Shown here in pieces: positions 29,490 through 33,246 of a stretch of 33,246 nucleotides of DNA. The notes under the pieces are model-generated. The model had not been told where the DNA came from and did not search any database. It worked only from the letters and a program-made list of their open reading frames with translations. The stretch comes from Acidimicrobiia bacterium (GTDB taxonomy: Bacteria; Actinomycetota; Acidimicrobiia; IMCC26256; JAMXLJ01). The stretch covers positions 1-33,246 of the forward strand of contig JAMXLJ010000072.1 in assembly GCA_024281095.1 (NCBI GenBank), written 5' to 3'. Position numbers and translations under genes: made by a program. Position 1 is the stretch's first letter; each line of letters starts with the position of its first letter.

Positions 29490-30140
29490 ATGAAGGTCGT
29501 CATTCCGCTGTTCCCCCGCTTCACCGCGCTCGACGCGGTGGGTCCGTACGAGGTGCTCAGTCGCCTCCCCGACGCGTCGGTGACCTTCGTCGCCGCGACG
29601 CGCGACGCGGTCAGCGCGGACACGGGCGCGCTCACGCTGCTGCCGGGCGCCACCTTCGCCGACGTCGACGCATGCGACATCCTCGTCGTGCCGGGCGGCC
29701 CAGGGACCCGCAGCCTCACGACGGACGAGGAGCTCCTCGGCTGGGTCCGGCGTATGAGCGCGGTCGCCCGGTGGACCACGTCCGTGTGCACGGGATCGCT
29801 CGTGCTCGCGGCCGCAGGATTGCTGGACGGGCTCGACGCGACCACACATTGGGCGGCGCGGGACCTGCTCGAGTCGCTCGGTGCGAGGTATTCAAATGAG
29901 CGGGTGGTCGTTCGCGGCACGGTCATCACGGCCGCGGGCGTCTCGTCGGGCATCGACATGGCCCTCGCGCTCGCCGGCCTCGTCGCCGGGCATCCCGTGG
30001 CCGAGGCCATCCAACTGTCGATCGAGTACGACCCGCAGCCCCCGTACGACAGCGGCTCGGTGGCGAAGGCCCGACCCTCGACGGTCGAGCTCGTGCGCTC
30101 GCTCGCGAAGCGGCGCACTGAGGGCGCCGGTACGACGTGA
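29490..30140 (+). CDS. DJ-1/PfpI family protein
   Basis: DJ-1/PfpI-fold protein of 216 residues. The N-terminal FPRFTALDAVGPYEVLSRL is typical of the isonitrile-hydratase/ThiJ branch. The nucleophile Cys100 stands in TTSVCTGSLVLAAAGLLDG with the following THWAARDLLESLGA. A C-terminal GVSSGIDMALALAGLVAG is also typical. Some relatives are isonitrile hydratases or form the amidase half of AraC regulators; there is no DNA-binding domain here. The start ATG has GAGGAGG about 7 nt upstream. It lies 71 bp after the glycosyltransferase and 72 bp before the sigma factor. Confidence 0.92.
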   Translation: MKVVIPLFPRFTALDAVGPYEVLSRLPDASVTFVAATRDAVSADTGALTLLPGATFADVDACDILVVPGGPGTRSLTTDEELLGWVRRMSAVARWTTSVCTGSLVLAAAGLLDGLDATTHWAARDLLESLGARYSNERVVVRGTVITAAGVSSGIDMALALAGLVAGHPVAEAIQLSIEYDPQPPYDSGSVAKARPSTVELVRSLAKRRTEGAGTT

Positions 30141-30212
30141 CGAGGTCCGGCCTCCGCGCGGTCGCGGAGGCTGGGGCTCAATTCTCGACGGCGCGATGCC
30201 GATCGAAGGCGT

Positions 30213-30866
30213 GTGGCGGCGGAGCGCGCGGGGCGCACGACGATCGGCGACGATTGGGACTCCGTCCTCGCCGCCGCGGGCGCGGGGGCGGAGTGGGCGA
30301 TCGCAGTCTTGTATCGAGAGCTGAATCCGCCGCTCGTGCGCTACCTCCGGACGCGGGTGCCGCGCGACGCCGAGGACCTTGCGTCCGAGGTGTGGATGGC
30401 GCTCGCGCCGGCTCTCGCCGGGTTCACCGGCACGGAGCAGGAGTTGCGCCGTCTCGCGTTCACGATCGCCCACCGCCGCGTGGCGGACTACTGGCGTCGC
30501 CGGGCTCGGCGGGTCGGCGAGGAGGTCACGGCGCCCGACGCGCTACCGGAATCGCCTGCGCACGGGCGGGCCCGCGACGTCGCTGACCTCGTCGCGGACG
30601 CCGATTCGGCCGAGGCCGCCCTCGCGCTCGTGCGTGCGAGGCTTCCGGCTGCGCAAGCCGACGTCGTGCTGCTGCGCGTCGTCGCCGGCCTCGACGCCGA
30701 TGAGGTGGCGGAGATCCTCGGGAAGCGGGCGGGCACGGTGCGGGTGCTGCAGCATCGGGCGCTGAAGACACTCGCCCAGGCCCTGGCGGCCGAGCCGGCC
30801 GCCGGCGACGTTGTCCCCGTGATGCCGGTCAGCCCGACGATCGCCTCGCGCGCCTCCGCCGTCTGA
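30213..30866 (+). CDS. ECF-like RNA polymerase sigma factor
   Basis: Sigma-70 family protein of 217 residues. Region 2 runs from AIAVLYRELNPPLVRYLRTR to DAEDLASEVWMALAPAL and the -10-recognition helix TIAHRRVADYWRRRAR. Region 4 is LPAAQADVVLLRVVAGLDAD, then EVAEILGKRAGTVRVLQHRA, the -35 helix-turn-helix. Regions 1 and 3 are absent, so it is an ECF-type factor. An anti-sigma gene does not follow; the next gene is on the other strand. The C-terminal tail of about 20 residues is short. The GTG start at 30213 is tentative, with only a weak GAAGG upstream. Confidence 0.88.
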   Translation: MAAERAGRTTIGDDWDSVLAAAGAGAEWAIAVLYRELNPPLVRYLRTRVPRDAEDLASEVWMALAPALAGFTGTEQELRRLAFTIAHRRVADYWRRRARRVGEEVTAPDALPESPAHGRARDVADLVADADSAEAALALVRARLPAAQADVVLLRVVAGLDADEVAEILGKRAGTVRVLQHRALKTLAQALAAEPAAGDVVPVMPVSPTIASRASAV

Positions 30867-31000
30867 ACCGTGCCGGCACAGCCGCGCACTGGCTCGTCCC
30901 AGGCAGCCCGCGTCGCCGCCACCGCGCCGGCGGGGAAACGACTCGATCCAGAGCTCCCCGGCCGAGATCCAGCCGAGCCCTGCGGGGTGGCGACGGTCGC

Positions 31001-31405
31001 TCACTCGCCCCGATACGTGCCGAAGCTCCAGATGTTGCCTTCCGGATCGCGCACGCTGAACCCGCGGGATCCATAGTCCTCGTCGCGTAGCTCCCGCACG
31101 AGCTGCGCGCCCGCGCCCATCGCGCGGTCGAACAGCTTGTCCGGGTCGTCGGTGACGACGTACACGGATGCCGCACCGGTCGGCCGCTGTGAGAACACGT
31201 TGTCTTCGCGGTCGGCGGTTCCGAGCATCACGCCGCCGCCCTCGGGCCAGCGGAGCTGCGCGTGCTCGACGATTTCCGGCATCTCCCCCGGGACGACGAG
31301 GGTCTCCTCGAAGCCGAAGGCGTCGACGAGGAAACGGATCGCACGCCGCGCGTCGAGGTAGTTCAGCGTCGGCCACACGGTCTTGGCGGGTCTGTTCTCG
31401 GTCAT
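31001..31405 (-). CDS. VOC (glyoxalase/bleomycin resistance) superfamily protein
   Basis: VOC-fold protein of 134 residues, one pair of beta-alpha-beta-beta-beta modules. It starts with VWPTLNYLDARRAIRFLVDAFGF and ends with the closing block YGSRGFSVRDPEGNIWSFGTY. Such proteins bind metals and act as isomerases, dioxygenases or antibiotic-binding proteins; the pattern here (glyoxalase-like, no clear His in the first strand) fits PhnB-like members of unknown role. The start is the ATG at 31405. It is convergent with the sigma factor and divergent from modA. Confidence 0.88.
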   Translation of the reverse strand: MTENRPAKTVWPTLNYLDARRAIRFLVDAFGFEETLVVPGEMPEIVEHAQLRWPEGGGVMLGTADREDNVFSQRPTGAASVYVVTDDPDKLFDRAMGAGAQLVRELRDEDYGSRGFSVRDPEGNIWSFGTYRGE

Positions 31406-31493
31406 GGGTCAACCCTGCCCGAACCGTGCCCTCGTTGCCATGAACAATCGCGAGATGCCCCGACGCAAGCCACGCGGGAGGGCGCGGGCCTCG

Positions 31494-31514
31494 GATCCCG
31501 CGACTGCAAGGATC
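31494..31514 (+). promoter_or_regulatory. Weak inverted site upstream of modA promoter
   Basis: GATCC (31494-31498) and GGATC (31510-31514) flank CCCGCGACTGCAAG (31497-31510), which matches 10 of 14 bases of the CCCGCATCTGCGGG palindrome in front of the HTH-TOBE gene. It lies just upstream of the expected -35 of modA. It is a candidate second binding site for the regulator. Confidence 0.3.
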
Positions 31515-31542
31515 AGCTCCACTTCTCCTTGCTTCCACGAGC

Positions 31543-31548
31543 TAGCGT
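31543..31548 (+). promoter_or_regulatory. -10 element for modA
   Basis: TAGCGT would start a leader of about 32 nt containing GGAGG before the modA ATG at 31587. It has the same hexamer as the DrrA-like gene promoter. Confidence 0.4.
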
Positions 31549-31586
31549 CGGCCGGCATCACTGGGTTCCTGCCGCCGGAGGATGGG

Positions 31587-32396
31587 ATGTCGAAGGTCAT
31601 GGCGCGCCGGTCGACCCGGCCTTTCACCGCGGCGGTCATGTTGGTGGTGGTCGTCGGCGCCGCGGCGTGTGGATCCGGGGCCGCGACGAAGCCCGGCAAT
31701 CCGTCGTCCGGCGCGGCTCTGGCCGGCCGGCTGACCGTCTTCGCCGCTGCGTCGCTCACAGAGTCGCTCGACCAGGAGAAGCAGAGCCTGCGACGACGGC
31801 ACCCGAAGCTGTCGGTCACGTACTCGTTCGCGGGCTCGCAGCTCCTCGCCCAACAGATCCTGCAAGGCGCTCCCGCCGACGTGTTCGCGTCTGCCGACGA
31901 GAAGAACATGCAAAAGCTCGTCGACGCGCGTTTGGTGGAGAAGCCCTTGGTATTCGCCCGTAACAAGCTGGAGATCGCCGTCGCCCGTGGCAATCCGAAG
32001 CACGTGACGGGATTGCGCGATCTCGGCCGCTCCGACCTGACGGTCGTGCTCGCGGACCCGAGCGTCCCGGCCGGCAACTACAGCCGCCAGGCGCTCGACG
32101 CCGCCGGTGTGACCGCACACCCGAAGTCGCTCGAGCTCGACGTGAGGGCGGCGCTCGCGAAGGTCGCGTCCGGTGAGGCGGACGCGACGGTCGTGTACGT
32201 CTCCGACATCCGTGGTGCGGGCGCGAAGGTCGACGGCGTCGAGATCCCGGACGCGCAGAACGTCATTGCCCGGTATGTGGCCGCGGTCGTCCGGCGGACG
32301 GGGAACGCCGCGGTCGCGCGAGCGTTTCTCGCCGACCTCGTGAGCGGAGACGGCCACGCCGCGATCGTCGCCCACGGGTTGCTGCCGGCCGAATGA
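31587..32396 (+). CDS. modA: Molybdate ABC transporter substrate-binding lipoprotein
   Basis: Periplasmic-type binding protein of 269 residues that captures molybdate or tungstate for the ModB permease. A signal with TAAVMLVVVVGAAACGSG has a lipobox ending in Cys, so the protein is a lipoprotein. The mature chain opens LTVFAAASLTESLDQ, the hallmark of ModA with oxyanion-binding Ser. It continues with SFAGSQLLAQQILQGAPADVFASAD, VLADPSVPAGNYSRQALD and the DATVVYVSD stretch that completes the binding site. The start ATG at 31587 has GGAGGATGGG. The HTH-TOBE gene follows after 46 bp, then modB. Confidence 0.95.
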   Translation: MSKVMARRSTRPFTAAVMLVVVVGAAACGSGAATKPGNPSSGAALAGRLTVFAAASLTESLDQEKQSLRRRHPKLSVTYSFAGSQLLAQQILQGAPADVFASADEKNMQKLVDARLVEKPLVFARNKLEIAVARGNPKHVTGLRDLGRSDLTVVLADPSVPAGNYSRQALDAAGVTAHPKSLELDVRAALAKVASGEADATVVYVSDIRGAGAKVDGVEIPDAQNVIARYVAAVVRRTGNAAVARAFLADLVSGDGHAAIVAHGLLPAE

Positions 32397-32414
32397 AGCG
32401 CTTCAGACGTAAAA

Positions 32415-32428
32415 CCCGCATCTGCGGG
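32415..32428 (+). promoter_or_regulatory. Palindrome in HTH-TOBE promoter (operator)
   Basis: CCCGCA-TC-TGCGGG is a perfect palindrome; the flanks extend it with one mismatch (AAA / ATT). It sits between the expected -35 and the -10 TAGGCT at 32431, which is the usual position of a repressor operator. It could instead act as the terminator of modA, but no T-run follows. Confidence 0.55.
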
Positions 32429-32430
32429 AT

Positions 32431-32436
32431 TAGGCT
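32431..32436 (+). promoter_or_regulatory. Leaderless -10 element for HTH-TOBE gene
   Basis: TAGGCT is exactly 6 nt before the ATG at 32443 and begins two bases after the palindrome 32415-32428. It implies a leaderless transcript of its own inside the modA-modB block. Confidence 0.6.
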
Positions 32437-32442
32437 GGCCCG

Positions 32443-32850
32443 ATGCCTTCGTTTCGCATCGGTGTGGCCGCGGACCTGCTCGGCGTGAGCGTCGACACGG
32501 TCCGGCGTTGGGCCGACGAGGGGCGCCTCCGTGTCACACGGACCTCGGGTGGCCATCGCGTGATCGACGGGGCCGATCTGGCCCGGTTCGCGACGTCGCT
32601 GGCCGCGGCGGACTCGCCCGAGCCCATCGTCGGCCAGTCCGCCCGCAACCGGTTCCCGGGCATCGTCACACGCGTCGTGAAGGACAAGGTCGCGGCCCAG
32701 GTCGAGATCCAGGCCGGCCCGCACCGGCTCGTCTCGCTCATGACCAGAGAGGCGGCCGACGAGCTGGAGCTCGTGCCGGGGGTGCTCGCGATCGCGGCGG
32801 TCAAGGCGACCAACGTCGTCGTGGAGATCCCGTCCGACGGGCAATGGTGA
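32443..32850 (+). CDS. MerR-type HTH plus TOBE (Mop) regulator
   Basis: Two-domain protein of 135 residues. The N-terminal helix-turn-helix is RIGVAADLLGVSVDTVRRWA with the wing DEGRLRVTRTSGGHRVI, as in MerR/BldC-like proteins. A short linker follows. Then comes a single TOBE/Mop domain (about 66-130: NRFPGIVTRVVKDKVAAQVE, LVSLMTREAADELELVPG, VLAIAAVKATNVVVEI), the molybdate-binding module of ModE and Mop proteins. It probably senses molybdate and controls the uptake genes. The start ATG at 32443 is fixed by the -10 hexamer. Its stop codon lies inside modB (8 bp overlap with an ATG, 4 with the GTG). Confidence 0.93.
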   Translation: MPSFRIGVAADLLGVSVDTVRRWADEGRLRVTRTSGGHRVIDGADLARFATSLAAADSPEPIVGQSARNRFPGIVTRVVKDKVAAQVEIQAGPHRLVSLMTREAADELELVPGVLAIAAVKATNVVVEIPSDGQW

Positions 32851-33246
32851 CCGCCGAGCGCGACGACGAGTTGCGCGAGCGCCCTCCCGTCGTGCCGGTG
32901 GTGCTCGCATCCCTCGCGGTCCTGTTCTTCGCACTGCCGCTCGCGGGGCTGGTCTGGAAGGCGCGGTGGAACACTGCGTGGGATCAGCTCACACAGCACG
33001 AGGCGCTGCAGGCCCTGCGGCTGTCTCTCGTCACGTCTGTCGGCGCGACCGCGGTCGCGCTCGTCTTCGGCGTTCCGCTCGCCTGGGTGCAGGCGCGCGT
33101 CGCGTATCCCGGCAAGCGCCTCGTGCGCGCGCTCACGACCCTTCCCATGGTGTTGCCGCCCGTGGTGGGGGGCATCGCGTTGCTCTACGGCCTGGGTCGG
33201 GCGGGCCTCGCGGGGCGGCAGCTCGACACGTTGGGCGTGCACCTGC
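32844..33246 (+). CDS. modB: Molybdate ABC transporter permease (partial)
   Basis: First 134 or so codons of the membrane subunit of the molybdate transporter; the gene runs off the window. The visible part has a short hydrophilic N-terminus, a first membrane segment (VVLASLAVLFFALPLAGLVW) and the loop QALRLSLVTSVGATAVALVF. The ModB motif LPMVLPPVVGGIALLYG is followed by LGRAGLAG. The start is ATG at 32844, overlapping the regulator by 7 bp; the in-frame GTG at 32847 would give a GTGA overlap. The expected ATPase (modC) is likely beyond the end. The gene is read from the regulator's transcript. Confidence 0.92.
   Translation, partial: MVTAERDDELRERPPVVPVVLASLAVLFFALPLAGLVWKARWNTAWDQLTQHEALQALRLSLVTSVGATAVALVFGVPLAWVQARVAYPGKRLVRALTTLPMVLPPVVGGIALLYGLGRAGLAGRQLDTLGVHL

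Follow-up and report, generated by a model that had tools for sequence, protein, structure and literature searches.

The 33,246-bp stretch analysed here (hereafter the window: positions 1 to 33,246 of contig JAMXLJ010000072.1, Acidimicrobiia bacterium assembly GCA_024281095.1) ends within a molybdate uptake operon, in which modA is followed by a gene for a 135-aa protein combining a helix-turn-helix (HTH) with a TOBE domain, and then by modB, truncated by the contig end. The original prediction, made from the sequence without database searches, had placed the HTH-TOBE gene between modA and modB, and both the gene calls and the profile matches in the window bear this out. Comparison of promoters and proteins across relatives suggests that the 135-aa protein is probably a molybdate- or tungstate-responsive repressor of its own gene and of the uptake genes, reading DNA through a winged helix-turn-helix (wHTH) of the BldC/MerR type. 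The features on which this reading is built are the following:

31496..31511, no strand assigned: predicted operator TCCCGCGACTGCAAGG, the distal one at the modA promoter, scoring 11.2 bits against the motif built on relatives
31527..31542, no strand assigned: predicted, weak proximal operator of the modA promoter (CCTTGCTTCCACGAGC), 5.9 bits
31543..31548, plus strand: putative -10 box TAGCGT of modA, adjoining the proximal operator, read from the sequence
31587..32396, plus strand: modA, molybdate ABC transporter substrate-binding protein (TIGR01256, 131.3 bits, cut-off 62.5)
32415..32428, no strand assigned: predicted operator palindrome CCCGCA-TC-TGCGGG (CCCGCATCTGCGGG), 16.0 bits, conserved in relatives
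32431..32436, plus strand: -10 box TAGGCT, 6 nt 5' of the ATG at 32443, of the TANNNT form conserved in family promoters
32443..32850, plus strand: 135-aa HTH-TOBE regulator whose transcript is predicted to be leaderless, beginning at the ATG or beside it; Pfam TOBE and MerR both over cut-off
32449..32610, plus strand: winged helix-turn-helix of the regulator, residues 3-56, from the AlphaFold2 model, with BldC 6ama/6amk as best solved matches
32638..32826, plus strand: TOBE (Mop) domain of the regulator, residues 66-128, with conserved S66, R68, T101, K121 and A122, from Pfam, NCBIfam and PDB matches and conservation
32844..33246, plus strand: modB permease (TIGR01581), overlapping the regulator end by 7 nt and truncated by the contig end

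The modB match (93.9 bits across the first 134 aa) stays under the cut-off of 210.3, the window holding the first part of the gene only. An exact copy of the last 127 bases of the window (33120-33246) stands at the end of C53, another contig of this genome (G000; L004); that contig completes modB and then carries an ABC ATPase-like frame, read as modC, whose C-terminal part is a TOBE domain. On these grounds the operon order is most likely modA, regulator, modB, modC, with the assembly break lying inside it, between the two contigs. The order modA-regulator-modB is identical in a genome of the same genus (G036). The window's genome holds five strong matches and one weak match to PF02738 (molybdenum hydroxylase type), and therefore probably needs molybdate.

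The 46-bp gap between modA and the HTH-TOBE gene contains CCCGCATCTGCGGG, TAGGCT and, after six nucleotides, the ATG, and the palindrome is the sole repeat there with arms of 6-8 and a gap of 0-11. It had been described as a perfect 14-bp palindrome; the inverted repeat at 32415-32428 is real, with 12 of the 14 positions pairing and the TC centre unpaired. The -10 box and its 6-nt distance to the ATG are in the sequence as claimed, whereas the placement of the palindrome in a -35/-10 spacer holds only in part: it lies just 5' of the -10 box, but no recognisable -35 element is conserved. The regulator promoter thus carries one site in the window, centred at -21. The weaker copy announced upstream of modA is found as CCCGCGACTGCAAG at 31497-31510 (10/14 identical, compared by eye), and the motif learned from relatives places two sites there, starting at 31496 and 31527, exactly 31 bp apart. 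If the modA transcript starts near 31555, about 7 nt past TAGCGT, its proximal operator would be centred near -21, matching the site in front of the HTH-TOBE gene. In G036 the regulator gene is preceded, at the same distance to its start codon, by CTCGCA-AC-TGCGAG, in which one base is altered per arm and pairing is kept. The window alone does not set the palindrome apart from chance; as judged by sequence, the comparative evidence does.

Relatives of the regulator were taken as the best 80 of 215 found (58-76% identical), and their upstream regions, nine of the 80 being dropped as near-duplicates, gave 71 non-redundant training promoters, the window included. A de novo search restricted to inverted repeats, covering every repeat with arms of 3, 4 or 5 and a gap of 0-14 in the 100 bp upstream, put GCA-N2-TGC on top by a wide margin (27/71 promoters, against a mean of 2.56 and a maximum of 6 in 50 dinucleotide shuffles); the longer CGCA-N2-TGCG was present in 12/71, against 0.22 in shuffles. 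Exact-pattern searches for targets failed: CCGCANNTGCGG occurs 17 times in the genome against 40 for its reversed control, a tandem pattern with one mismatch was met at 15 places against 119 in the control, and a strict tandem pattern matched 8 of 395 class genomes, with no excess over control columns. Exact words being too strict for so degenerate a motif, a palindromic weight matrix was trained on the 71 promoters. Its sites above 9 bits fall in 39/71 of them, against 2.95 in 200 dinucleotide shuffles, and in just 1-4 of 66-71 control windows taken at six offsets in the same loci.

The motif also recurs in promoters outside the training set. HTH-TOBE genes were found in 23 of 58 genomes of the order at E <= 1e-25, and 35 of 149 genomes of a phylum sample matched at 1e-20, the best 30 places, the window's own included, being used. 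After removal of loci that repeated a promoter already in the set (7 of 21 from the order, 2 of 29 from the phylum), the hold-out comprised 41 new promoters (14 from the order, 27 from the phylum). L084, whose match starts at residue 17, was excluded from all promoter work, and L135, whose match starts at residue 66, from the hold-out; a script took the nearest in-frame ATG, GTG or TTG as the start codon, and many of the genomes are metagenome assemblies. Sites above 9 bits occur in 16/41 held-out promoters (1.5 expected and 7 at most from mononucleotide shuffles) and sites above 6 bits in 22/41 (7.8, maximum 14). Within the order, 13/14 promoters exceed 5 bits and 7/14 exceed 9 bits, and in the phylum part 9/27 exceed 9 bits, beyond the shuffles (1.0, maximum 4). 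Training and held-out promoters together, 18 of 130 having been removed as near-duplicates, form a combined set of 112 non-redundant promoters. Over 58 sites the arms covary significantly only at pair 1/14 (p=0.003), pair 2/13 giving p=0.07, values uncorrected for five tests. The conservation of the palindrome near HTH-TOBE genes, which the original prediction had named as its own check, is therefore found in training and held-out promoters alike, though not in every group.

The sites are arranged in a fixed pitch. Counting sites above 6 bits from -150 to -1 in the 112 promoters, 27 pairs at 31-32 bp stand in 22 of them, against 0.04 (maximum 1) in 300 mononucleotide shuffles, and the held-out promoters by themselves contribute 8 such pairs in 7/41. 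At 5 bits the 71 training promoters also show 11 pairs at 62-63 bp, against 0.05, so that some promoters carry three sites. Site centres form two ladders from the start codon, at about +2/-29/-60/-91 and about -20/-51/-82, and in 13/112 promoters the start codon itself is covered by a site above 6 bits. In 79/112 promoters a TANNNT box stands 5-8 nt 5' of the start codon, mostly 6 or 7 nt (5.95, maximum 11 in shuffles), and a Shine-Dalgarno-like word lies near the start in only 5/112. From these two features leaderless transcription is predicted to be a family trait, which agrees with the start at the ATG proposed for the window gene. In L008, L037, L063 and L118 the stretch CTTGC-ATGA-GC, which spans the opening codons (Met-Ser followed by Glu, Asp or Gly), is operator-like and lies 30-31 bp from an upstream site where one exists; in these four the operator may shape the first residues of the regulator.

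Gene order ties the regulator to molybdate uptake well beyond the window. When searched with the window's proteins, 60 of 79 relatives (blastp) or 62/79 (tblastn) have modA in the regulator's orientation and downstream of it, the tblastn matches beginning at most 900 nt from the regulator start in 61/79; modA lies upstream in 0/79, but does so in the window and in G036. At L029, L031, L035 and L051 modA was not found, and in each a site pair at 31 or 32 bp stands about 3.2 kb away; the gene behind this distant pair in L029 and L035 is tungstate-binding WtpA-like (under the equivalog cut-off), and a WtpA-like gene also lies behind the regulator in L015 and L053. As a control, 50 order genomes with modA, 23 having the regulator (some with promoters in the training set) and 27 lacking it, were scanned over as much as 800 bp 5' of the modA match; for three of them the stretch was only 204, 355 or 377 bp long, and two additional modA copies of G194 and one of G209 were left out. 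Pairs at 30-32 bp precede modA in 7/23 genomes with the regulator and in 0/27 without, and single sites above 9 bits in 13/23 with it. No ModE repressor domain exceeds its cut-off in any of the 58 order genomes, the 23 regulator-bearing ones included, five weak matches lying below; molybdate uptake control in these genomes would therefore otherwise be unexplained. As a separate observation, the WtpA-like gene of L029 is followed on the minus strand by a 622-aa frame (L029:4415-6280) that matches WtpB in its first part and WtpC/ModC in its second, and which by sequence is probably a fused permease-ATPase for molybdate or tungstate uptake.

The protein itself joins a DNA-binding part to an oxyanion-type domain. 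PF00376 (MerR) is matched at 44.7 bits (cut-off 28.2), identifying a MerR-type wHTH, and PF03459 (TOBE) at 55.6 bits (cut-off 22.3) in one stretch, residues 66-125; the Mop model TIGR00638 reaches 48.9 bits, under its cut-off of 55. In the AlphaFold2 model (mean predicted local distance difference test 85, predicted template-modelling score 0.47) a helix at 43-56 and a low-confidence linker at 58-67 precede a TOBE barrel of residues 69-128; the template-modelling score implies that the relative placement of the domains is not fixed by the model. Foldseek relates the wHTH part to BldC, RacA, NmlR and GlnR, with BldC 6ama_A (root-mean-square deviation 1.2 A, template-modelling score by target 0.84, E 0.011) giving a BldC-type fold, and the TOBE part to ModE, ModG, Mop and Tub. 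The model has no coiled-coil helix of the MerR kind, and dimerisation from the TOBE domain is for this reason most likely. In Tub, tungstate is held by the backbones of Arg6 and Ala61, the side chains of Ser4 and Lys60, and Ser40 of the neighbouring subunit (PMC11980592). These positions (Ser4, Arg6, Ser40, Lys60, Ala61) match S66, R68, T101, K121 and A122 of the window protein, the Mop-to-window numbering being set by hand from alignments. S66, R68, N69 and K121 are invariant in 79/79 aligned proteins, the window included, and position 101 is T or S and position 122 A or S in all of them, a count that omits L068 (read-through length 286). The signal is probably molybdate or tungstate held between TOBE subunits.

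The motif, its position, the 31-bp phasing, the leaderless -10 box, the domain content and the pocket conservation, all established computationally, can be joined in one mechanism. The BldC/MerR-type winged helices would recognise the dyad YCGCA-N2-TGCGR, while the single TOBE domain would bind the oxyanion and supply the dimer or higher-order interface in place of the MerR coiled coil. In the molybdate-replete cell the loaded protein would sit on sites centred either at about -21, where they abut the -10 box, or at about -29 and +2, where they cover the -35 region and the start site. Such positions suit a repressor excluding RNA polymerase, and from them the protein would block the polymerase at the leaderless regulator promoter and at modA. 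As 31 bp equal three helix turns, adjacent sites share one face of the DNA, and such neighbours are probably filled cooperatively. In most relatives the promoter so controlled would precede regulator-modA-modB; in this genus, where the regulator lies between modA and modB, there would be two controlled promoters, that of modA with its 31-bp pair and that of regulator-modB with one strong site. The original prediction of an autoregulated molybdate sensor is supported by the motif conservation, the TOBE pocket and the lack of ModE in the order, but needs widening, the likely targets by sequence including the uptake operon and modA besides the regulator gene.

Several observations weigh against this reading. 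Binding of the protein to the motif, its promotion by molybdate, repression and cooperativity are all deduced from sequence and a structural model. No site above 6 bits is present from -150 to +40 in 37 of the 112 promoters, whole groups included, and there either the operator has changed or the regulator does something else; in the phylum hold-out, sites above 5 bits (12/27) stay within the shuffles (7.8, maximum 15), and covariation is partial, the remaining three arm pairs showing none of significance among the 58 sites. Pairs at 32-33 bp away from the regulator promoter in L024, L062 and L074 have no explanation, and single sites above 9 bits precede modA in 7/27 order genomes without the regulator. 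In the window there are 25 perfect 6-2-6 repeats, about 1 per 1,330 bp, and CCCGCANNTGCGGG with up to 2 mismatches occurs 3 times against 6.2 expected, without local enrichment; CCGCANNTGCGG, as seen above, is rarer in the 4.39-Mb genome than its reversed control, and no further regulon members came to light among the two TC-centre CCGCANNTGCGG places inspected, of 16 others. These two perfect TC-centre sites, in a hydrogenase-like frame (G000:C124) and a MoaD-like frame (C138), identities that are the authors' reading of the translations, lie inside coding sequence and were dismissed as chance; sites in G003 and G174 (11.9 and 12.5 bits) were put down to probable chance, without proof.

Two groups lacking the motif count among the same difficulties. 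In family f67 (L151-L158, L160, L166) no site exceeds 9 bits in any of the ten members retrieved, and the two non-redundant mycobacterial promoters, L050 and L068, have none above 5 bits before the gene. An alternative operator was sought in the f67 upstream regions, which yielded no clear common word; all ten f67 HTH-TOBE genes retain a TANNNT box 4-11 nt 5' of the start codon. The upstream regions of L050 and L068-L071 (Mycobacterium/Mycolicibacter) have GGTATTTCCCAGGAG in common, and the surrounding DNA examined at these loci has no modA or modB match; in L068 the next gene after HTH-TOBE encodes a SigJ-like sigma factor. The mycobacterial members perhaps have a different operator and a different job.

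The regulator might instead activate. Classical MerR proteins dimerise via a coiled coil, and their palindrome lies within a long (19-20 bp) -35/-10 spacer. Acting likewise, the regulator would bind at the promoter and untwist the DNA, so that uptake would be switched on under molybdate scarcity, or the sign of the effect would depend on the ligand; its wHTH does belong to the MerR superfamily. The symmetric dimers of classical MerR proteins on palindromes (PMC5859096) also fit the dyad found here. Against this, neither a -35 consensus nor a preference for 19-20 bp spacing was found in 27 register-2 and 31 register-1 promoters with a -10 box, searched with a -35 matrix, which leaves MerR-type activation via -35 spacing unsupported; the model lacks the coiled coil, and sites covering the start codon are aptly placed for blocking. 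We regard activation as unlikely.

It is likewise improbable that the palindrome array is real but read by another regulator of molybdate uptake, with the HTH-TOBE protein a bystander such as a molybdate buffer. The link between protein and motif comes from sequence comparison, some regulator-bearing groups have no motif, and motif-like single sites precede modA in genomes without the regulator, all of which such a bystander would accommodate; yet the 31-bp pairs before modA are confined to regulator-bearing genomes, the regulator's own promoter carries the motif, pairs also precede a WtpA-like gene in two loci without adjacent modA, ModE exceeds its cut-off in none of the order genomes, and the HTH-TOBE protein has a wHTH of its own. 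An accident of a GC-rich genome or a modA terminator remnant, already disfavoured, is very improbable despite the frequency of 6-2-6 repeats and the unenriched word, for no T-run lies 3' of the palindrome, the same-genus genome and the wider family preserve it in position, sequence and dyad, and 31400-33246 gives no Rfam match at or above the gathering score, on which ground an RNA element was likewise rejected.

Returning to repression by the loaded protein, it is tempting to speculate on how the array is read. By analogy with the NrdR tetramer, a ligand-gated multi-dimer switch is possible, though tentative, in which the TOBE domains, on binding molybdate or tungstate, would form a dimer or trimer-of-dimers like those of Mop and Tub and let the winged helices clamp two to three palindromes across the leaderless promoter, between about -91 and the start codon, with the 31-bp pitch set by the oligomer itself. 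NrdR boxes are palindromes. Two of them lie about three helix turns apart, centre to centre, under an NrdR tetramer, and the ligand-controlled oligomer represses (PMC12051234). The proteins themselves are unrelated, NrdR combining a Zn ribbon with an ATP cone, responding to a nucleotide and acting on ribonucleotide reductase targets. Mop, ModG and Tub share the TOBE domain with the same pocket residues, but serve in storage or homeostasis and carry no DNA-binding domain. Tub assembles as a hexamer (a trimer of dimers) whose ligand sites lie where subunits meet (PMC11980592).

The resemblance to ModE is one of logic. Both proteins join a wHTH to TOBE, with the gene at the uptake operon, and both probably act as molybdate-loaded repressors of uptake. 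The top Foldseek match of the full model is molybdate-bound ModE (1o7l), at a root-mean-square deviation of 15 with the two domains placed differently. ModE has two TOBE domains where the window regulator has one, and a different N-terminal domain, that of the regulator matching MerR/HTH_17 and BldC; the ModE model NF007957 covers residues 64-127 only (20 bits, cut-off 369), and a TIGR00637 search of the window's genome finds nothing at E<=0.001. The E. coli ModE operator consensus is ATCGNTATATA-N6-TATATANCGAT (PMC545781), whereas the operator here is YCGCA-N2-TGCGR, often in tandem, and no TATATA, TATAT or ATATA occurs in 31400-32442.

A gut survey distinguishes three major architectures of TOBE regulators, namely ModE, ModE-like (HTH_9 with one TOBE) and TaoR-like (HTH_17, PBP-like, TOBE) (PMC11980592). 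ModE-like proteins also have one TOBE domain but another HTH type, and a single-TOBE molybdate regulator as such is, going by that survey, not new; TaoR-like proteins share HTH_17 and TOBE, and add a periplasmic-binding-protein-like (PBP-like) domain, of which Pfam detects none in the window protein. As far as the survey's excerpted text goes, no operator is given for either, and a MerR/HTH_17 wHTH with a single TOBE alone falls outside its three major architectures, its nine minor ones not having been compared. Our searches of the open-licence literature turned up nothing on a mod-gene regulator that joins HTH_17/MerR to TOBE, and the excerpted text of a review of Frankia metal homeostasis names ModABC and ModG and no mod regulator (PMC4531530). 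BldC is the closest solved wHTH (6ama/6amk, root-mean-square deviation 1.2-2.0 A), likewise small and free of a coiled coil, with cooperative filling of repeated sites a probable further likeness. It binds as a monomer, head to tail on 9-bp direct repeats (PMC5859096), and has no sensor domain, whereas the sites here are dyads repeated three turns apart, and the BldC model NF033787 is matched at 36.3 bits, under its cut-off of 77. By the features tested the regulator is thus neither ModE nor a classical MerR protein, having a BldC fold yet lying under the BldC model cut-off; by analogy it would resemble ModE in logic and NrdR in operator geometry.

This work provides a candidate regulator, an operator and a promoter geometry that can be read from sequence for many molybdate operons of Actinomycetota. 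Were the proposed mechanism to hold, a storage-type metal-binding domain would substitute for the MerR-type dimerisation module, and a ligand sensor would, like NrdR, read sites phased at three helix turns. Given that the transcript appears leaderless, with operator, -10 box and start codon within about 30 bp, the promoter could then make a very compact molybdate or tungstate biosensor. Elsewhere in the window, with no visible molybdate link, genes for a DJ-1/PfpI protein, a sigma-70-type factor and a glyoxalase-family protein (minus strand) occupy 29490-31405, upstream of modA.

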